Shown here piece by piece: positions 6,123-28,144 of a DNA stretch of 28,276 bases. This DNA comes from a virus. Positions within the stretch are counted from its first letter, which is position 1. Each line of letters begins with the position of its first letter. The stretch spans positions 1 to 28,276 of IMG/VR virus record IMGVR_UViG_3300037562_000021. One strand, given 5' to 3'. Both the position numbers and the translations under genes were made by a program. Under the pieces are notes generated by a model, which was not told where the DNA came from, searched no databases, and worked only from the letters and a program-made list of their open reading frames with translations.

Positions 6123-6452
6123 ATGGCAACGCCAGAAGAGATAGCGCAGATGAGGTATCAGCATTTTGTTGATCGGTTGTTGGAGGGGGAGTTGGATGAG
6201 TCGGAAGGTGATTTGTGGATGGAGGTTTATGAAAAGGTTTGTGAGATGCACCCGAGCTTTCCAGATAATTTGTTCCCTATTGGTTTAGGAAAGGATGTTC
6301 TCCAAAGAAGCCCAACGACATTGGTGATTAATGGGTGGGGGAGAACAGAGGCTCCAACGATTGAAGCTTTGATGAATAAGATTGTGAGGGCGTATGAAGA
6401 GTGCAAACGAGATCGATGGGGAAAATTTAAGCGAGCCGGAAAAGAAACGTAA
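6123..6452 (+). CDS. Hypothetical phage protein (109 aa)
   Basis: The start follows GAGGTGAGGG. The sequence is helical and acidic (MATPEEIAQMRYQHFVDRLL, then EGELDESEGDLWMEVYEKVC) and ends in a basic tail (KRDRWGKFKRAGKET). The last 59 bases overlap the TerS-like gene in a different frame. The position directly before the terminase genes suggests packaging or head assembly. No family recognised. Confidence 0.65.
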   Translation: MATPEEIAQMRYQHFVDRLLEGELDESEGDLWMEVYEKVCEMHPSFPDNLFPIGLGKDVLQRSPTTLVINGWGRTEAPTIEALMNKIVRAYEECKRDRWGKFKRAGKET

Positions 6453-7314
6453 GGGTCAACCTAAAGGTGGATGGCCTTCCGTCAAGGCGAGGAAAGCAAA
6501 GCGAGAAGCATTAAAAGAAAAAGGGATTTTTGGTTCAGAGGATGAGGAAAAAACGGGTACCTATTATTTAGGTGCCGATGAAAACATCCCACAAGGTCCG
6601 TACAAGACGCAAGCGGAAAGGTGGGACGCCTACCGCAAGGTTTTGGATTTGAATGCGGTTCGTGAAAAGAGGGGGAAGAAGAGACTCGCTGAGAAACTAA
6701 TTGAGAGATATGTCGGGGTTCCATACCAAGAGTTTGACCGGGAAATTTTTACAACCGGGTTCCAAAATTTCCGGTTGGCAAAAGCGTCAATGCACATAAC
6801 AGGAACGCTTGCCGATATTGCCCCGGCGTTGAGGTTGGCGTTGCTTGAGTTGGCGCAGGATATGGAAACGGATAAGGGGAAAGACCCGAAGAAGCAGAGG
6901 GAAATGATTTCGTTGGTTTCGACTGTGATGGAGAAATTCGGGATACAAAAGATCGATACTTCGTATGCTGATTCTTCGCAGGATATGGATACCGAGGAAG
7001 CGATTGAAGAGGGAATGAGAATTGTTCAGGAGATGAAGGGGCATGAAGAGTGCGAACAATGGTTTACAACTGTCGCCACTAACACCAGAAAGAGCCAGGG
7101 AAAACCTCTTTCGATTAAGTCAGATCGCGGAACATCTGAGAACGATAAAGATGGTGGACCCGGTAAAGATTTGGAGGCCGTTCCCATACGTCAAGAAACT
7201 TCTAACGAGCAAGTTGAAGTACCTAATGATGATCGGGTGCAATCGACTGAGCAAAACGGATTGGTTGACAACGGACTTCAGTCTAGCGGCAATGGGGAGA
7301 CACCCAACATTTAG
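6394..7314 (+). CDS. Putative small terminase subunit (TerS-like), 306 aa
   Basis: I infer TerS from its position directly upstream of the large terminase and from its layout. A basic N-terminal region (KKRKGQPKGGWPSVKARKAK) could contact DNA. A helical central part follows (residues 75-215, including YKTQAERWDAYRKVL and ALRLALLELAQDMETDKG), and then a disordered, Ser/Asn/Glu-rich C-terminal tail. The tail (residues 217-306) lies in another frame over the first 90 codons of the large terminase. The start has only a marginal site (GAGGG three bases upstream) and begins with the same MKSAN as the next gene. No diagnostic TerS motif is visible, so the function rests mainly on synteny. Confidence 0.55.
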   Translation: MKSANEIDGENLSEPEKKRKGQPKGGWPSVKARKAKREALKEKGIFGSEDEEKTGTYYLGADENIPQGPYKTQAERWDAYRKVLDLNAVREKRGKKRLAEKLIERYVGVPYQEFDREIFTTGFQNFRLAKASMHITGTLADIAPALRLALLELAQDMETDKGKDPKKQREMISLVSTVMEKFGIQKIDTSYADSSQDMDTEEAIEEGMRIVQEMKGHEECEQWFTTVATNTRKSQGKPLSIKSDRGTSENDKDGGPGKDLEAVPIRQETSNEQVEVPNDDRVQSTEQNGLVDNGLQSSGNGETPNI

Positions 7315-7939
7315 GACGCCTAAGAACTGTACGATGTGGATTTCGGTGGAGAAGAATGACAAGGTTGACCAAGTTTTAGAGCCAAAGTTTCGGGAGAAGT
7401 TGATGCCTGGGCATTGGGAATACAACAGCAATAAGCATATTTTCTATGTGAAGTGTGGGGCAAATAATTGGTCGGAAATCGTTATAAAATCGCAAGAATC
7501 AGGGAGGGCAAGCTATGAAGGTTCGAAGGTTTACAGGCTTGCATTCGATGAACAGCCGGATGAGCAAATATTTGATTCAGCACTTATTAGAACAGTCGAT
7601 ACCCGAGGTCAAGTTCTTGTGGCGGCAACGATGTGGGAGTTTGGGATTACCTGGCTTTACGACAGATTTATCGTTCCTTATCTCGAAGGTAAAAGGGGTG
7701 ATCTTGAATTAGTGGGAAAGGATCTTCCGATGGAGTCCAATCCCATGCTCGACCCGCAAGAGATTGCCGAGCAAAGAAGGCAGACGGCACTCAGGAGTCC
7801 CGAGGAAAGCGCGGTCCGGTTTGACGGGAAGTACATTCCAATCGGAGGATTGACGCCGTTTAATTTAGAGGCGTTGAAGCAGTATCGGGATAACCAGGGG
7901 AAAGCAGTAGAGGCAGAACTTTATTACGGAGGCAACTGA
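7043..7939 (+). CDS. Large terminase, ATPase domain as a separate protein (298 aa)
   Basis: This is the N-terminal motor half of a TerL DNA-packaging ATPase. The Walker A position is residues 65-72, GCNRLSKT, where most terminases have a Gly in place of the Ser before Lys-Thr. Walker B is RLAFDE (D169, E170), followed by the coupling segment VLVAATMWEFGITWLYDRF. The protein ends at residue 298 (EAELYYGGN), just where a normal TerL of 450-600 residues would cross into its nuclease domain. Its TGA overlaps the ATG of the GroES-like gene, and the nuclease half is a separate gene at 8550. The first 272 bases overlap the TerS-like gene. Packaging activity presumably requires assembly with the nuclease protein. 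Confidence 0.85.
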   Translation: MKSANNGLQLSPLTPERARENLFRLSQIAEHLRTIKMVDPVKIWRPFPYVKKLLTSKLKYLMMIGCNRLSKTDWLTTDFSLAAMGRHPTFRTPKNCTMWISVEKNDKVDQVLEPKFREKLMPGHWEYNSNKHIFYVKCGANNWSEIVIKSQESGRASYEGSKVYRLAFDEQPDEQIFDSALIRTVDTRGQVLVAATMWEFGITWLYDRFIVPYLEGKRGDLELVGKDLPMESNPMLDPQEIAEQRRQTALRSPEESAVRFDGKYIPIGGLTPFNLEALKQYRDNQGKAVEAELYYGGN

Positions 7940-8553
7940 TGATCGCTTTGAATGACCGAGTAATTGCCAAGGTGAGTAATATGCCTGAGAAAACTAAGGG
8001 TGGAATTATTTTGCCAACTCAAAACTTTCAAGAGGGACAGGCGAAGATAAATATTGGGAAAGTTCTTGCGGCTGGACCTGGATTAACTCTGCGAAACGGG
8101 GAAGTGATTAAAGTCCCCGTCAAGGCAGGTGACGTGATTGTTTGGGAACAGTACGGGGCGCTTAGGTTTGAAATTCTAGGCCCAAAGATTGTTTGTATCC
8201 GAGCCGAGGACATAGGAGCGATTCTTGACCCGTCTGAATATGACGAAGGGTGGTTTGAAGAGTTTGATGGTGGTCAGGACGCTATAAATGATGATGCCGT
8301 GTCAGCTTATGCCAAAGAACAGCGTGATAACCAAGGAAAGCTTCCCGACCTATGCGAATGCGAACTTCTTTGCCAGGAGTGCGGGGCAAAAGAGAATATC
8401 GCCTTACCGTGGAAGGATTCGATGGGAACCGTGGATGATGCCTTACTTGCCACCCAACTTTGTTACAAGTGCAATAAACCAGCCTACAAGGTTTCCAAGA
8501 AAATTCTTAATTCACAGATACACGTTGATGGCGGTACTCCGAGGTTCCATTGA
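7939..8553 (+). CDS. GroES-like co-chaperonin with C-terminal zinc ribbon (204 aa)
   Basis: Residues 1-95 are a GroES/Cpn10 domain: MIALNDRVIAKV, a mobile-loop region ending in GGIILP (residues 21-26, matching the GGIVL that binds GroEL), then GKVLAAGPG and VKAGDVIVWEQYG. Bacterial GroES is about 95-100 residues; here about 105 are added. The tail is acidic (EYDEGWFEEFDGGQD), then shows CECELLCQECG (139-149) and CYKC (175-178), a zinc ribbon. No GroEL is present, so it would work with host GroEL, as T4 gp31 does for the capsid protein. It overlaps both terminase halves (TGATG, then TTGA). The tail contains RDNQGK (129-134), also found at the end of the ATPase gene. Confidence 0.85.
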   Translation: MIALNDRVIAKVSNMPEKTKGGIILPTQNFQEGQAKINIGKVLAAGPGLTLRNGEVIKVPVKAGDVIVWEQYGALRFEILGPKIVCIRAEDIGAILDPSEYDEGWFEEFDGGQDAINDDAVSAYAKEQRDNQGKLPDLCECELLCQECGAKENIALPWKDSMGTVDDALLATQLCYKCNKPAYKVSKKILNSQIHVDGGTPRFH

Positions 8554-9278
8554 AACCGAACATAAAGGTCATTGCGGGTGGGATGTGGAAGTTTTATGAA
8601 GATCCCCGCCCGGAATACACTTATGTAATGGGCGTGGATACGGCTTCTGGAAAAGAGGGCGCTAATGAAACGGTTGCCCACATTCTTTGTGTCAATACAG
8701 GGAAACAGGTAATAACAAGCGGAGGCCAATACGCACCTGAAGATTTTTGTGGACAAATTGAAATGGCGGCTTATCTCTACAATGAAGCCTGTATAGGAGT
8801 TGAAAGGGAGTTTCATGGCGTCACGATCATTAACTATCTCAGGCAAAAGCTTTACCCAAATATTTACTTCCATCCTTCTCACCTCACGGCGTTCAACGGG
8901 GCACCAACGGAGTTTGGATGGGATGCGAGGCGATACCGGCAAATCGCGATTGATTGGCTTCAACAGGACATTGGGTATTCCGTTTCTAAGGTTCCGATGG
9001 AACAAGATAGGGCAATCTGGCTTAAAGACCCTGAGACAATTACCCAATTGGGGTATTTTTGGAGGAATAAAAAGACGGGCAAGTTTGAAGCGCCTCCGGG
9101 CAAGAGGGATGACAGGGTATCGGCTCTTTATATTGCCAACTACATACGCAGAGAGGTTTACCCGTTAATATTTGCGGTAGAAGCGCCGAAGGAGAAAGAG
9201 ATGACATTCTTGGAGAGAATCCAGCAAGGGGATAAGGCGGAGGACCGAAATATGGGGAGGCGTGATCTTGACTATTAA
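8550..9278 (+). CDS. Large terminase, nuclease domain as a separate protein (242 aa)
   Basis: This is the C-terminal RNase H-fold nuclease of TerL, which cuts concatemeric DNA at the start and end of packaging. The two-metal site is visible: D30 in YVMGVDTASGK, E85 in ACIGVEREFHG, and D187/D188 in GKRDDRVSALY. It contains no Walker A. The best start is TTG 8550, which overlaps the GroES stop (TTGA) and has CCGAGG seven bases upstream; an internal ATG (residue 12) lacks a usable site. The C-terminal tail after residue 205 is charged and may contact the portal. Together with the 298-aa ATPase it equals one complete TerL of about 540 residues. Confidence 0.85.
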   Translation: MKPNIKVIAGGMWKFYEDPRPEYTYVMGVDTASGKEGANETVAHILCVNTGKQVITSGGQYAPEDFCGQIEMAAYLYNEACIGVEREFHGVTIINYLRQKLYPNIYFHPSHLTAFNGAPTEFGWDARRYRQIAIDWLQQDIGYSVSKVPMEQDRAIWLKDPETITQLGYFWRNKKTGKFEAPPGKRDDRVSALYIANYIRREVYPLIFAVEAPKEKEMTFLERIQQGDKAEDRNMGRRDLDY

Positions 9279-9543
9279 ACTTGAAGCCTACCGATGTGAA
9301 AACGACAAATGTGGGTTCTTTCTTCATGCTAGGAAAAAGGGGACAAAGGGCGATAGGGCTAGGTGGATCATCCTTCGGGCGCATTTAGAGCCGGGTTCAT
9401 TCGTTTCTCGAACCTACTGCCCTCATTGCCATTGGGAGTTGAAGTTGGGACTGTTCAAAGAGCCGGAACACGAAAACATTGACGAAAAGCCATTGAGTGC
9501 GATAGATTTGATAAGGCGGATTTCTTTAAATGCAAAATCGTAG
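9268..9543 (+). CDS. Zinc-ribbon protein (91 aa)
   Basis: I choose TTG 9268 as the start because GGAGG lies seven bases ahead; the upstream GTG at 9262 is only one base from that site. Cys residues come as C-x4-C (YRCENDKCGFF) and C-x2-C (RTYCPHCHWELK), separated by about 40 residues, forming a zinc ribbon. It overlaps the nuclease gene by 11 bases. Its place between terminase and portal suggests a packaging accessory, but the partner is unknown. Confidence 0.65.
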   Translation: MTIKLEAYRCENDKCGFFLHARKKGTKGDRARWIILRAHLEPGSFVSRTYCPHCHWELKLGLFKEPEHENIDEKPLSAIDLIRRISLNAKS

Positions 9544-9823
9544 AGTCTGCTGGTACTGCCATTATCAAAGTTTGGCGACAGATGTAATCATCGGGACGCA
9601 TTCTCACAAGTGCCCACGATGCGGGATGGAGGCTTATCAATATCTTGTGAGCCAGATTGACCGGGCGTTAGGAACTCGATACTTCGTTCATTCGTTGGGC
9701 GAGGTAATGAGGGCGGGGCGGGAACGCCCCCATCTCCTTATTCATGGGCTGTCCAAGACAGACATGATGAGACACACGGTGGACAAACTGGATGCCTACG
9801 TTCCAAACGGATCAATTCACTAA
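9530..9823 (+). CDS. Zinc-ribbon protein (97 aa)
   Basis: The gene starts at ATG 9530, overlapping the previous gene by 14 bases. It begins MQNRRVCWYCHYQSL, and the second pair follows in HSHKCPRCGMEAYQY, a compact four-Cys zinc ribbon in the first 35 residues. The rest is helical with basic patches (LGEVMRAGRERPHLLIHGL). Its 3' end overlaps the portal start by 32 bases. With the preceding gene it makes two consecutive zinc-ribbon proteins; they are not obviously similar to each other outside the Cys pattern. Confidence 0.65.
   Translation: MQNRRVCWYCHYQSLATDVIIGTHSHKCPRCGMEAYQYLVSQIDRALGTRYFVHSLGEVMRAGRERPHLLIHGLSKTDMMRHTVDKLDAYVPNGSIH
9715..9730. other. GC-rich hairpin with GNRA loop upstream of portal start
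   Basis: GGGGCG-GGAA-CGCCCC forms a six-pair GC stem with a GGAA tetraloop, inside the zinc-ribbon gene and about 60 bases before the portal ATG. It encodes RAGRERP, so it may be coding chance, or an mRNA structure affecting portal translation. Confidence 0.4.
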
Positions 9824-11996
9824 CTCCCAATCGGTAAATGCCGATGTTCCGCAGGAAGATCCTAAAGTCGTTTATCGCTTTGTTACCGACTGTGTTACCG
9901 ACTCTGAAATTTACCGCAACCAATTCTCAGTTCTCTCCGATTCAAAATCCTGGGTAGCAGACGCAACTAAATACGAAGAACTCTATAACGGGAAACTTTA
10001 TTCCAAACGGGAAAAACTTCCTTACGAATGCAAGGAAGATATTTACCGGGACATGGTGGACTTCAACACAACCCTCTTGGTTCAGTTTGAAGTTAAGGAT
10101 TATGTTAAAAACATAAATGAAGAACCCTCATCTATTGACGCCGATACGATGAGCCGCATTCTTAATTACTGCATTGATGAGTTGAATGATGGGAAAGAAA
10201 AGGAAGAAGAGTTCGTAACCATCTCCGGCCAGATGGGAAACTCGATTTATAAATTCAACCCGATTGAAGTTGACGGGTATGTTTGGCCTGGGCACGAAGT
10301 TGTTGACCCGAGGCAATTCGGAATTTCCCCAAACGCTAGAGGGCCGAAAGACGCAGTATTTTGTTTTTGGAAACGGCCCGTCCCTACATATGAACTCAAA
10401 CAAAAATTCCCAGACCACAAAGATGCAATCAAACCAGACGTTGATGTTTCTGATTACGGTTCTGGAAAGGGTGGGGTTCCGAATGGATCTGATGGCGCAG
10501 TTCTGATAAACGGATTAGGGACTTCCGCTTATGTGGCTATGAATAAAATGGTTTCTCTTTTTACCGGAAAAGAGCAGTCACTTCAAACGGTTCTTACTGA
10601 GTTTTACTATCGTGATCCAGAAATGATTACGATAAAGGACGAGGAAGAGTTAGATAAATGGATTGAAAGCAATCCGGCTTTTGGCAGTGAGTTTTTCAAA
10701 CAGGACGCAAAGGGGACTTATTTAAAACGGTTACAAGATGAGCCGGAAGGATTGAAGGTAAAGAAATTTCCTTTCGGGCGGAAGATTATGACCATCAAAG
10801 ATATTGTCTTGATGGACGAAGCTAACCCGTACCCGTTTATTCCCTTCGTGGGAGGCAAATGCTTCGCAAGGCCAAAAACATTTTGGTCTAAGGGGATTGT
10901 CGAGGTTGTCCGTGAACCGGCTCAGAATATTCAGTTAATGACTTCGGGACTTGCGGCCAACACAGACTATCGGTTGCGACCCGCATTCTATTGCCAATCT
11001 AATCTCCCCGGAAAAGTTAAAAAAGTTCCAACCGAGCCAAACTCTCTTGAATACTTCCCAGGTCAAATTAACGCTGTCCCTGTCGGACAATTACTCCCGC
11101 AAGATGTACAAGCGGCAATTGCGTATCGCCAAAAGAAAATGGAAACCACGGCTGGATTGGATTCGATTTTGGCTGGAAATAACCCGCAAGGAAATTATTC
11201 GGGAATTCAAACCAATACTCTCATGGAGGGTGCATTAGGAAAGACGGCTCCCCGGCTTCGCTGGCTTAATCGTTCCAGAAAAGATTTAGGCGGGATGTAT
11301 CTTTGGTTTCTTCAAACGTGGTGTACCGATGAGAGGATGATTAACTTCCAGAGCCAAGATGAGAAGATGTTGAAGGTTCAGATGAATCAACTGGCGATGC
11401 AAGGCGGCAACCCGGTTGTTTCAAATGACGTGACTAAAGGGAAGTATCAATATTTCATTGATGTGAATGTTACCCAACCGGCATCCCCGTCTCAGGCGTT
11501 TGCTCAGGTTCAGCAAATTGCGAAAATATTTGCCCCATTTGCCCCGATAGAGGCCGCAAGGATACAACTAGAAAAGGCTCCTGTGACGGGCAAGTGGGAA
11601 TACATGAAACGGTTTGAAGCCGCGATCCAAAGCCAACAGGAACAATCTGCGGCTCAACAGCAAATGCAGGTTCAAATCCAGACCGCCAAGATGCAGATGG
11701 ATCAAATGAAAACTGAAAGGGAATTGGACATTAAGGAAGTCCAGGCCGGGGCGAAGGCTCAAGAATCTCTTGCGTGGGTTATTCAGGCGCTTACCAAGGC
11801 TGTTACGGATGCTCAGGCGGTGGGGGCTGTTATTCCTCCTGAACTAATGATGGAGTTGAGGACGTTGGCGGCTTCTACAACTCAGGAATCTACAGCGGCC
11901 ATCAACACGGCTAGGCCAAATCTGCCAACTCCGCCTCAAATGCCTCCGACTCCGATAGGACAGGCGTACTTCCCTGGAGGACAACCACATGGCTGA
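9792..11996 (+). CDS. Portal protein (734 aa)
   Basis: This is the dodecameric ring at the capsid vertex through which DNA enters and leaves. Its length is near that of podoviral portals (P22, about 725). Portal-like features include an N-terminal helical part (residues 30-130), the signature-like DPRQFGISPNARG (about 173-185) followed by a beta-rich crown, the segment VREPAQNIQLMTSGLAAN in the clip/wing region, and MAMQGG-type C-terminal helices. Residues 615-660 are a Gln-rich coiled coil (QSQQEQSAAQQQMQVQIQTA), and the tail is Pro-rich (PTPPQMPPTPIGQAYFPGG). The start ATG lies inside the previous gene with only a weak GGTGG nine bases ahead, so it relies on coupling. The assignment rests on these features plus its position after terminase. 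Confidence 0.8.
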   Translation: MPTFQTDQFTNSQSVNADVPQEDPKVVYRFVTDCVTDSEIYRNQFSVLSDSKSWVADATKYEELYNGKLYSKREKLPYECKEDIYRDMVDFNTTLLVQFEVKDYVKNINEEPSSIDADTMSRILNYCIDELNDGKEKEEEFVTISGQMGNSIYKFNPIEVDGYVWPGHEVVDPRQFGISPNARGPKDAVFCFWKRPVPTYELKQKFPDHKDAIKPDVDVSDYGSGKGGVPNGSDGAVLINGLGTSAYVAMNKMVSLFTGKEQSLQTVLTEFYYRDPEMITIKDEEELDKWIESNPAFGSEFFKQDAKGTYLKRLQDEPEGLKVKKFPFGRKIMTIKDIVLMDEANPYPFIPFVGGKCFARPKTFWSKGIVEVVREPAQNIQLMTSGLAANTDYRLRPAFYCQSNLPGKVKKVPTEPNSLEYFPGQINAVPVGQLLPQDVQAAIAYRQKKMETTAGLDSILAGNNPQGNYSGIQTNTLMEGALGKTAPRLRWLNRSRKDLGGMYLWFLQTWCTDERMINFQSQDEKMLKVQMNQLAMQGGNPVVSNDVTKGKYQYFIDVNVTQPASPSQAFAQVQQIAKIFAPFAPIEAARIQLEKAPVTGKWEYMKRFEAAIQSQQEQSAAQQQMQVQIQTAKMQMDQMKTERELDIKEVQAGAKAQESLAWVIQALTKAVTDAQAVGAVIPPELMMELRTLAASTTQESTAAINTARPNLPTPPQMPPTPIGQAYFPGGQPHG

Positions 11997-24927: not shown

Positions 24928-25283
24928 GTACGATCAATGGCGTTTCGACAACCACATCCCCCATCATTTATAACGAATTAATTAATACGATTCTCCAAGA
25001 ACCGTTGGACATAACGATGTTCAATAAGTTTAGGCAAGGCGTTTACTCAACACTCAATTCGTTGTCGATTTTAACCGGGATTGCAACACTATCTAGCGGG
25101 AAAGCCTTAATTAATAACGCAATAACAAAGAAGTACTGTTCAGCCACATCGAAGGTGTTTTTAACACCACAAGACGGCAACACTTCGGGTATCATATATC
25201 CGACTTGCTCTAGTGGCAGTTTTACGATTACTTCAAAAAATGGCAGTGATTTTGGCGTAATAGCTTGGCTGTTAATTCCGTAA
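24924..25283 (+). CDS. Short fibre-tip-like protein (119 aa)
   Basis: The N-terminal 55 residues are helical or linker-like (MSTINGVSTTTSPIIYNELI), and the rest is a phage fibre-tip type beta module: GKALINNAITKKYCSATSKV, then FLTPQDGNTSGIIYP, FTITSKNGSDFGVIAWLL. The same module, with PQDxNTSG and DxGVxAW, ends the 260-aa protein encoded downstream (26193-26975). The start overlaps the preceding stop; the nearest good site (GGGAGG) is 11 bases ahead. Probably part of a trimeric fibre or head appendage; no signal peptide here. Confidence 0.6.
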   Translation: MSTINGVSTTTSPIIYNELINTILQEPLDITMFNKFRQGVYSTLNSLSILTGIATLSSGKALINNAITKKYCSATSKVFLTPQDGNTSGIIYPTCSSGSFTITSKNGSDFGVIAWLLIP

Positions 25284-25297
25284 ATGAGAGGTTTGTG

Positions 25298-26179
25298 ATG
25301 AAAAAGATTATCTTAACTCTGATGGGTTTACTTCTTTCGGGAACGGCTTTTGCCCAAAGCTATACCTCAACACCGTCTTATACGCTAACTCCATCCTACA
25401 CGGCAACTAACACTTATACAAACACGGCAACTTACACCTATACAGCCTCGCCTACGCCTACAGGGAGTAATACGCCTACTTATACTGCAACTCCGACCTA
25501 CACCGGGTCGTGGGCGGCTACTGCTACGGTGGCTCTTTGGACGGCTACATTTACGCCGACTCCAACGGGTTCTTGGACACCATCCTATACTTGGACCGCT
25601 ACTTATACCTTTACCCCTCGGTACACCTGGACCCCAACTTACACCTTCACTTCAAGTTATACGCCAACTTCAACCTATACGTTTACGCCGACCAAAACAT
25701 CGGTGTTTACAAATACTATTACCAACACGTTCACGCCAACCAATACTTCGACTTCTACCCCAACATTTACTTTTACCCCTACAAAGTCTTATACCCCTAC
25801 CATTACAAATACCTACACGGTAACGAATACTTGGACGCCTACGGCAACAGCGACTAACACGCCTCCAATTCCAGCACTTCAATCGGCTTCGTTTTCAATC
25901 GCAAATTCAACTCCGGTGGTTATTGTGCCAACAGTGGTTGGTAAAACAATTTATGTTTATCAGTACATAACGAATGCTTCAACGACAGTCACAACGTCTT
26001 ATTCGTTCTCAAGCGCAACGACTCCTGTATATGGCCCTTATGGATTTTCTACTACGGGGACAGATAGCAAATCGTTTAGTGCTATTCCTTGGGTGACGGG
26101 AACCTCGGGAGGCAACCTAGCCATAACGCAAACAGGAACGAATGCGCTTAATGGAACCGTTTGGTTTAAACAACAGTAA
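25298..26179 (+). CDS. Signal-peptide protein with long Thr/Tyr/Pro linker and distal beta domain (293 aa)
   Basis: ATG 25298 has GAGAGG six bases ahead. The first 19 residues, MKKIILTLMGLLLSGTAFA, are a classic Sec signal peptide with an AFA cleavage site. Residues 20-190 are a low-complexity Thr/Ser/Tyr/Pro run (YTxTxTYT, TPTFTFTPT) that would form an extended, possibly glycosylated stalk. The C-terminal 100 residues contain VVIVPTVVGKTIYVYQYITN, similar to the (V)VAAVSGKKIRVL-type domain common in phage appendage proteins. A Sec-exported protein with a phage-type tip is unusual. It could be a surface decoy, superinfection-exclusion factor or fibre. Confidence 0.65.
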   Translation: MKKIILTLMGLLLSGTAFAQSYTSTPSYTLTPSYTATNTYTNTATYTYTASPTPTGSNTPTYTATPTYTGSWAATATVALWTATFTPTPTGSWTPSYTWTATYTFTPRYTWTPTYTFTSSYTPTSTYTFTPTKTSVFTNTITNTFTPTNTSTSTPTFTFTPTKSYTPTITNTYTVTNTWTPTATATNTPPIPALQSASFSIANSTPVVIVPTVVGKTIYVYQYITNASTTVTTSYSFSSATTPVYGPYGFSTTGTDSKSFSAIPWVTGTSGGNLAITQTGTNALNGTVWFKQQ

Positions 26180-26192
26180 CCAAGGAGAGAAG

Positions 26193-26975
26193 ATGAAGCT
26201 AACATTCTTTGCCTTAATCTTCATCTTTTCTTTCGGCATTGTCGAGGCTCAGACCGTAACGGTTTCTCAGGGCTATGACCAATACGCAACGTTGATTCTT
26301 TTGAATACGGGAATGGGAGCGTCTTTCACTTCTTTTCCCGTATTGGAGAATTGGTACAATTCAACGGATTATGGTGCCCCTGTTAGTGACCCGAATTGGG
26401 AACAAATATGGATAACCGGGAATTCATCGGATTATCTTTTAATTACTCGGGCTGGAAACGGAACAACGGCTAAAACGCATAACATTGGTGGAAAGACTTA
26501 CCTTCTGACCTCCGCTTCTGCCGGAACTCCTACACCTACCTTCACTCCTACCCCAACCGGACTAACACCTACTCCCGTCCCTCTTATTGCTATCCAAAAC
26601 GGACCTAATGGGCCATTAACGGTAATTCAGATAAACGGCGCTTCGGTGACGATGATAAATAATATCGCGGTAGCAACCACGCCAACTCCTTCCAATGGAC
26701 AGATTCTAAGTTATAAAGCTACGCCAAACGTAATTACCTGGATCAATCTTCCAAATGGATATATCGCTTCGGGAATCGTGACGTTAAGTAATGGATTGGC
26801 AACCGTGACGACTTCATCTGCCTATTCTGGAATGAAAGCGGTAGTCATACCTCAAGACACGAATACTAGCGGATCTGTTTGTTACGATTCTTCAACACTT
26901 GTGGCCGGGGTGAGTTTCGGAGTTTCGAGTACAGGAATCTTTGATAACGGGGTGGTGGCATGGTTCGTTTACTAA
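26193..26975 (+). CDS. Signal-peptide protein with short TPT linker and fibre-tip module (260 aa)
   Basis: ATG 26193 follows AAGGAGAGAAG. The signal peptide is MKLTFFALIFIFSFGIVEA, cleaved before QTVTVSQG. A first beta domain (residues 20-115, NWYNSTDYGAPVSDPNWEQI) is followed by a short linker TPTPTFTPTPTGLTPTPVP, a middle segment, and a C-terminal tip: GLATVTTSSAYSGMKAVVIP, QDTNTSGSVCYDSS, FDNGVVAWFVY. The tip is homologous to the end of the 119-aa protein. The gene overlaps the next by 16 bases. Same class as its two neighbours. Confidence 0.65.
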   Translation: MKLTFFALIFIFSFGIVEAQTVTVSQGYDQYATLILLNTGMGASFTSFPVLENWYNSTDYGAPVSDPNWEQIWITGNSSDYLLITRAGNGTTAKTHNIGGKTYLLTSASAGTPTPTFTPTPTGLTPTPVPLIAIQNGPNGPLTVIQINGASVTMINNIAVATTPTPSNGQILSYKATPNVITWINLPNGYIASGIVTLSNGLATVTTSSAYSGMKAVVIPQDTNTSGSVCYDSSTLVAGVSFGVSSTGIFDNGVVAWFVY

Positions 26976-28144
26976 TAATTCTATTGCTGGCTGGTAAGGC
27001 GTTTGCGGGATACCCAAACCCGATTGGCTATGTTCCGGGGTATATGAATTTAACCACGACACCTACATTCGTTCCGTTTTACCCGAATGGACAGCCGGTG
27101 CAGAACCCCCAACCGTCCCAAACGATCACGCCTATTTATTCGATGCCGTTGCCTGTTTTGACAGGAAGTGTTTCGCTGGCGAGTGGCAATAATGTGACGA
27201 TTGGTATTCCGAACGGATATTACACATTTTTTACTCAAAATATGTCGGGCCAAGCTTATGTTTATCCGATGGCATATGATGAGGGAATTCCTTCTTATTC
27301 ATTGGCGAACGGACTAAGCGGGACAATGGTTTGGCAGAACAATAGTTTATTTAATCCAATAACTACTGATTTTTTAGTCCCGATTGATGGAACTAATGGG
27401 ATTATTATTCACACTACGGCGACAACAACCTTCACTTATTTTATAACATCTTCTAAATTTAGTGGGCAAGGGCAAAGCGCATACGATGATATATCTGATT
27501 GGTTATCAACTGGGTCGCCTTCTGTTGGCGTAAATAATTTTCCAGCAAGCCAACTTGTCTATACTATCCCGACTAAAACGCCGACTTTTACCCCTACTGG
27601 ATCTGCCACGCCTACACCAACTTCAACCGGAGTTATAGTTGCTAACTTTCCGGCATTCCCGACACTACCTCCAACTCCACAATATCCGGTTTCGGTTGTT
27701 GCTCCTGTTTCTATTTCTGGAATCGCTAACCCTGTTCCGCTTCTTTGGCCGACAGCAACCTATACATTTACGAGTACCTACACCTTCACCCCTACTCCTA
27801 CCGGAAGTGCGACACCGACACCTACGGTTATTGCTACGGTTGGGATTTTCACGGTTTCAGGTTCGGGTTCGACTACATTGATTGCCGGGGTGGGAGGACA
27901 AACAATTCGAGTTATCCAGGCAAATGTAAACAATCCGCTCACCAATACCATCGGAACAGACGTTACCTTTACCAGCCAATTAACTCCAATTACGGCTAAT
28001 GTTCCGATTGTTCCAGGAAACGGAGTAGTAGTAACTAATCACTACCCTGAGTTTTTTGTAGGGAATGTGGGAGGGGATTGTTCGGTAACTTTAGATCGGG
28101 CTGTTACATTGAGCATAAAACTTTGGTGGACAAAAGGAATTTAA
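26960..28144 (+). CDS. Signal-peptide protein with two TPT linkers and distal beta domain (394 aa)
   Basis: The signal peptide is MVRLLIILLLAGKAFA, cleaved before GYPNPIGY. Residues 70-180 form a beta domain (VLTGSVSLASGNNVTIGIPN, YYTFFTQNMSGQAYVYPMAY). Two linkers follow, KTPTFTPTGSATPTPTSTG and a YTFTSTYTFTPTPTGSATPT run, separated by a Pro-rich segment. The last 100 residues (SGSGSTTLIAGVGGQTIRVI) match the distal domain type of the 293-aa protein. The start lies inside the preceding gene with GGGGTGGTGG close ahead. Likely exported and stalked; target unknown. Confidence 0.65.
   Translation: MVRLLIILLLAGKAFAGYPNPIGYVPGYMNLTTTPTFVPFYPNGQPVQNPQPSQTITPIYSMPLPVLTGSVSLASGNNVTIGIPNGYYTFFTQNMSGQAYVYPMAYDEGIPSYSLANGLSGTMVWQNNSLFNPITTDFLVPIDGTNGIIIHTTATTTFTYFITSSKFSGQGQSAYDDISDWLSTGSPSVGVNNFPASQLVYTIPTKTPTFTPTGSATPTPTSTGVIVANFPAFPTLPPTPQYPVSVVAPVSISGIANPVPLLWPTATYTFTSTYTFTPTPTGSATPTPTVIATVGIFTVSGSGSTTLIAGVGGQTIRVIQANVNNPLTNTIGTDVTFTSQLTPITANVPIVPGNGVVVTNHYPEFFVGNVGGDCSVTLDRAVTLSIKLWWTKGI

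Follow-up and report, generated by a model that had tools for sequence, protein, structure and literature searches.

A split, probably mosaic large terminase with a GroES-like co-chaperonin gene between its halves in a clade of metagenomic phages

In the virus record IMGVR_UViG_3300037562_000021, of which positions 1 to 28,276 (28,276 nucleotides) constitute the window analysed here, the large terminase (TerL) is encoded by two separate genes, one for the ATPase and one for the nuclease, with a gene for a GroES-like co-chaperonin lying between them. This two-piece motor with GroES between its parts is real and conserved, and each of its halves has its affinities with a different lineage of TerL. 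The explanation that we consider probable is that of a mosaic large terminase made of two polypeptides and produced by coupled translation, in which the intervening GroES-like protein most likely caps the GroEL of the host. Split TerLs are already known, and domain transfer has been proposed for a single-chain TerL, but a split, mosaic terminase with a co-chaperonin fixed between its halves appears to be new. No description of GroES between terminase halves, or of the marine-type split TerL reported below, was found in the open-access papers searched, although such absence is not proof.

Organization and conservation of the terminase locus

The three genes are ordered ATPase, GroES, nuclease, with a TerS-like gene upstream and a portal gene of P22 type downstream. 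The features of the locus are as follows.

6394..7314, plus strand: putative small terminase (TerS-like), from position and conservation in all relatives
7043..7939, plus strand: ATPase half of TerL, 298 aa, from the ORF call and hhalign against Jasmine-type TerL
7235..7258, plus strand: Walker A-like motif GCNRLSKT; N67, R68 and K71 invariant in six relatives
7538..7552, plus strand: Walker B motif LAFDE; L166, F168, D169 and E170 invariant in six relatives
7628..7630, plus strand: coupling-motif threonine T196, invariant in A4 and A6
7928..7941, plus strand: ATPase-GroES junction, GGAGG and TGATG stop/start overlap, from the sequence
7939..8553, plus strand: GroES-like co-chaperonin with a C-terminal cysteine-rich extension, 204 aa (Pfam Cpn10, 1e-16)
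7999..8013, plus strand: mobile-loop motif GGIIL; hydrophobic tripeptide conserved in six relatives
8371..8472, plus strand: zinc-ribbon-like CxxC...CxxC (C145, C148, C175, C178) in the tail of the GroES-like protein; all four cysteines invariant across six relatives
8541..8553, plus strand: GroES-nuclease junction, GAGG and TTGA start/stop overlap, from the sequence
8550..9278, plus strand: nuclease half of TerL, RNase H fold, 242 aa, TTG start, from profile and AlphaFold matches
9792..11996, plus strand: portal protein, P22-like (PF16510, 4e-22; phrog_156, 9e-27)

The open reading frames, their coordinates and their family matches agree with a first-pass annotation of this DNA, which had described TerL as two genes with a GroES-like gene between them. 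It had also noted that both junctions overlap and had proposed coupled translation. The ATPase and GroES genes share 1 nt and the GroES and nuclease genes 4 nt, and each downstream start is preceded by a Shine-Dalgarno-like sequence, placed 6 nt upstream of the GroES ATG and 5 nt upstream of the nuclease TTG. Overlaps combined with Shine-Dalgarno-like sequences are typical of genes in which termination and re-initiation are coupled, and ATPase, GroES and nuclease would be translated in coupled series from one message. Between 6300 and 9900, promoter and terminator sites did not exceed the level expected from shuffled sequence. The reading frames of the three genes are 2, 1 and 0, three separate frames, so an in-frame intein between the TerL halves is impossible, and the 612 bp that separate ATPase and nuclease are coding throughout, leaving no space for an intron. 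A TerL split by an intein or an intron is thus ruled out, as the halves are separated by a GroES gene that is coding over its full length and lies in a different frame.

The locus is not peculiar to one contig. Contig 3300037199_000011, which was assembled independently, matches the window at 99.95% identity over both junctions, and another such contig, 3300036883_000021, is 100% identical over the downstream (GroES/nuclease) junction, which settles the question of continuity raised by the first reading. Five diverged relatives (L008, L009, L010, L011 and L020), found via portal and ATPase and with portals 40-74% identical, all carry the order ATPase-GroES-nuclease (6/6 lineages with the window included), and in 0/5 is an intact TerL accompanied by a GroES gene elsewhere. 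Members of this clade are all metagenomic contigs, with no isolate among them. In all six lineages both junctions are overlapping or near-abutting, the start codons varying between ATG, TTG and GTG, and in L010 an additional 65-aa ORF lies between ATPase and GroES.

No family match was found for the TerS-like protein, and its identity is drawn from its position and conservation. The tail of its gene runs 272 nt into the ATPase gene in a different frame, and this overlap holds the Walker A codons. It is retained in six lineages at lengths of 83-404 nt (window 7043-7314; L008 4159-4442; L009 4270-4571; L010 4067-4470; L011 4258-4535; L020 1468-1550). In each of the five long-overlap lineages the overlap frame is open by chance in 0.0002-0.002 of synonymous shuffles, and it is very unlikely that the long overlap arose by chance. 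In most comparisons the protein tail specified by the overlap shows lower conservation than the remainder of the TerS-like protein.

Several further features of the window were recorded. Two small cysteine-rich proteins (9262-9543 and 9530-9823) occupy the interval between nuclease and portal and are conserved in all relatives, without assignment to a protein family. An array of 33-nt repeats (1073-1530), comprising about a dozen near-identical copies, lies within a minus-strand ORF; it yields periodic ORFs in several frames, and its copies re-align with L003 at multiples of 33 nt. Possible surface or fibre proteins are encoded at 25265-26179 and 26960-28144; both contain long repeats rich in Thr, Pro and Tyr (TYTPTPT-like).

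Two halves from different terminase lineages

The product of 7043-7939 carries the Walker A, Walker B and coupling motifs of a P-loop packaging ATPase, much as the first-pass annotation had read them, and their key residues are invariant in relatives. The Walker A sequence of the window is off-consensus, its counterparts being NRMGKS in L010 and NRLGKS in L020. Alignment of the window ATPase with Jasmine-type TerL by hhalign (99.5%, E 2.5e-23) covers the whole ATPase domain; the ATPase of one relative matches phrog_2 TerL (1.8e-10), and that of another matches Terminase_6N weakly, below the cut-off. The window protein is too diverged to give a match in Pfam, a PDB profile search with the ATPase likewise returned no match, and no ATPase relatives were found in scans of genome contigs. 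As the AlphaFold model is not usable (pLDDT 45), the identity of the ATPase rests on sequence profiles.

The product of 8550-9278 is an RNase H-type nuclease with an acidic triad. Its profile matches the nuclease domains of RB49 (1.5e-12) and T4 gp17 (8e-9), and T4 gp17 is also the top structural match (E 3e-10) of its AlphaFold model (pLDDT 78.5). The catalytic residues picked out earlier from the sequence, D30 (8637), E85 (8802) and D187/D188 (9108-9113), proved invariant among 17 sequences. Since the ATPase and nuclease domains lie on separate ORFs within a locus of three frames rather than on a single polypeptide, the pair represents a split variant and not a standard TerL. Judging from its motifs and its position between the TerS-like and portal genes, the predicted two-gene TerL would translocate and cleave DNA at the portal, where the two subunits would assemble non-covalently, the ATPase subunit pumping DNA and the nuclease subunit cutting it. 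No second terminase was detected with PF03237 and phrog_2 in three relatives of 39-42 kb, models that in most contigs fail to pick up even the ATPase of the clade itself, so that a highly diverged second terminase would escape them too. Because none was detected in these relatives, the ATPase and nuclease proteins are most likely the packaging motor.

The two halves are of different descent. The ATPase profile scores E 2.5e-23 against Jasmine-type and 0.01 against T4/Vibrio-type TerL, whereas the nuclease profile scores 0.37 and 4.3e-26, respectively. Among 16 intact TerLs, the ATPase profile matches eight, the nuclease profile seven and both profiles 0, and a tblastn comparison of the window proteins with 50,697 phage records listed no organism for both halves. 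Fused mosaic TerLs were absent from the panels of intact TerLs, each gathered by searching with one of the two halves, so that a fused mosaic ancestor outside the collection would be missed. The ATPase half is thus of Jasmine/phiEco32 type and the nuclease half of T4/Vibrio type. As the halves match different TerL lineages, the motor may be a hybrid put together from two origins, and not the product of an insertion into a single gene. The original description of a TerL split by a gene is therefore sound as regards two separate genes, but the single-gene history that it implies may be wrong.

Split terminases also occur without GroES. The nuclease profile retrieved 74 further contigs with a free-standing nuclease ORF of 222-249 aa, most of these contigs being apparently marine as judged by T4-like marine-type gene content, and not from sample records. 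In 72 of the 74 a separate ATPase ORF, of T4-like type, lies directly upstream of the nuclease, usually with a 4-nt overlap, and the other two end before the ATPase; none has a fused TerL (0) or a GroES gene (0). These splits lie among L024-L097 (e.g. L090:5114-6669 and L035:4093-5660). The offset between the ATPase and nuclease frames takes one value in 61 contigs and another in 11, which argues against a single programmed frameshift. The six GroES-flanked sequences fall together as a single clade in the nuclease tree (100/100), and the marine nucleases group with the intact TerL of ct52p938, on long, deep and poorly resolved branches. This placement of an intact TerL with the marine clade is consistent with a marine split that arose separately from the GroES-flanked one. 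The 72 GroES-free splits suggest that two-piece motors are viable. The splitting of TerL is independent of the presence of GroES, which is not necessarily its cause, and the link first drawn between the split and the co-chaperonin is not supported; the separate lineages of the halves are the more informative finding. Two more distant relatives of the nuclease lie in interrupted TerL genes (L116:470-2772, from a Vicinamibacteria MAG, and L115:4954-6609, from a Bacillota MAG), in which ATPase and nuclease, or the ATPase itself, are in separate ORFs; these could be real splits or frameshift errors.

The co-chaperonin and its place between the halves

The GroES-like protein scores 61.2 bits against the Pfam Cpn10 cut-off of 21.1 and matches the PHROG GroES family at 1e-16, and there is exactly one Cpn10 in each of the seven clade contigs (7/7). 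It retains the GGIIL mobile loop, which we take to be the GroEL-binding element, and its Cys4 tail is a candidate metal-binding site. No phage-encoded GroEL was detected in the clade contigs, and this, together with the retained loop, makes host GroEL the most likely partner. T4 gp31 is a co-chaperonin serving the folding of the T4 capsid protein, and it and other phage GroES proteins are expected to partner host GroEL, as is expected for the window protein. To our knowledge, none of them is encoded inside a terminase pair or carries a Cys4 tail.

Under the preferred explanation, subunits descended from different single-chain TerL lineages would make up a mosaic motor, and the GroES-like protein would cap host GroEL in the folding of phage structural or packaging proteins, its position between the halves keeping it co-expressed with the late genes. 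By analogy with T4 gp31, its clients could equally be capsid or portal. The constant place of GroES fits either a dedicated role or a hitch-hiker long kept at a recombination border, the latter being favoured by the marine splits that lack GroES and by the additional ORF of L010. That GroES came along, or was inserted, at a module border when ATPase and nuclease modules recombined, and acts like T4 gp31 in the folding of capsid or portal, is about as likely as not. The mosaic lineages of the halves and the extra ORF at the same spot speak for it. The absence of insertion scars, flanking repeats or any composition jump around GroES agrees with it if the event was not recent, and a recent insertion is rejected on these grounds; strict retention of the position in all six lineages, however, suggests some selection on gene order. 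An RDNQGK repeat at the C-termini of ATPase and GroES was considered as a trace of insertion and discarded, as relatives are without it.

It is doubtful that GroES is instead a dedicated assembly factor, which folds or joins the TerL halves or forms part of the motor through its cysteine-rich tail. Its fixed position between the halves (6/6 lineages), the coupled junctions and the conserved, lineage-specific Cys4 tail would all suit such a factor, but 72 marine terminases are split without GroES, the 65-aa ORF of L010 indicates that the spot tolerates unrelated genes, and retention of the GroEL-binding loop points to an ordinary partnership with GroEL. The stronger proposal, that the mosaic motor depends on a dedicated, co-translated, Cys-tailed GroES that serves the terminase specifically, as an assembly chaperone or as a component of the motor, appears unlikely. 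Union of the halves in one TerL chain by programmed frameshifting or RNA splicing is highly improbable and its frameshift form is rejected: both window junctions shift by -1 frame, but a whole gene separates the halves, no X_XXY_YYZ slippery heptamer lies near the ends of the window genes, and L020 and L010 depart from this frame relation, which also varies among the marine splits. An assembly chimera or frameshift artefact, a concern with a metagenomic contig, is rejected as barely credible, as independent assemblies span both junctions and five diverged relatives share the gene order.

Relation to known terminases and significance

Discordant domains have been described in the TerL of Xanthomonas phage PBR31, whose ATPase and nuclease domains are of different affinities and for which domain transfer was proposed; in contrast to the window, that TerL is a single chain (PMC10975493). 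The TerL gene of cyanophage Mic1 is, as in the window, interrupted, in that case by two inteins, of which one contains a homing endonuclease domain, whereas the window has no in-frame insert (PMC7156551). T4-type TerLs (T4 gp17, Vibrio 252E42.2 and ct52p938) share the nuclease fold and catalytic residues of the window nuclease, but are single chains with an ATPase of another lineage and no GroES between. Conversely, TerLs of the Jasmine, Shocker and phiEco32 type share the ATPase half, but are also single chains, their nuclease being of another subtype to which the profile of the window nuclease gives no match. The marine splits resemble the window in having ATPase and nuclease on separate overlapping ORFs, and differ in their T4-like ATPase and in the lack of GroES. 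SEA-PHAGES annotation likewise recognizes two-gene TerLs in isolates, giving the ATPase domain and the nuclease domain of TerL labels of their own, and we know of none with GroES between the halves.

How ATPase and nuclease communicate in the packaging motor is a long-standing question that has mostly been studied within a single chain. With a natural two-chain mosaic motor, in which each activity has its own gene, the need for a covalent link could be tested directly. Such a motor also suggests that lineages can exchange terminase domains, which bears on the widespread practice of using TerL as the sole phylogenetic marker of phages.
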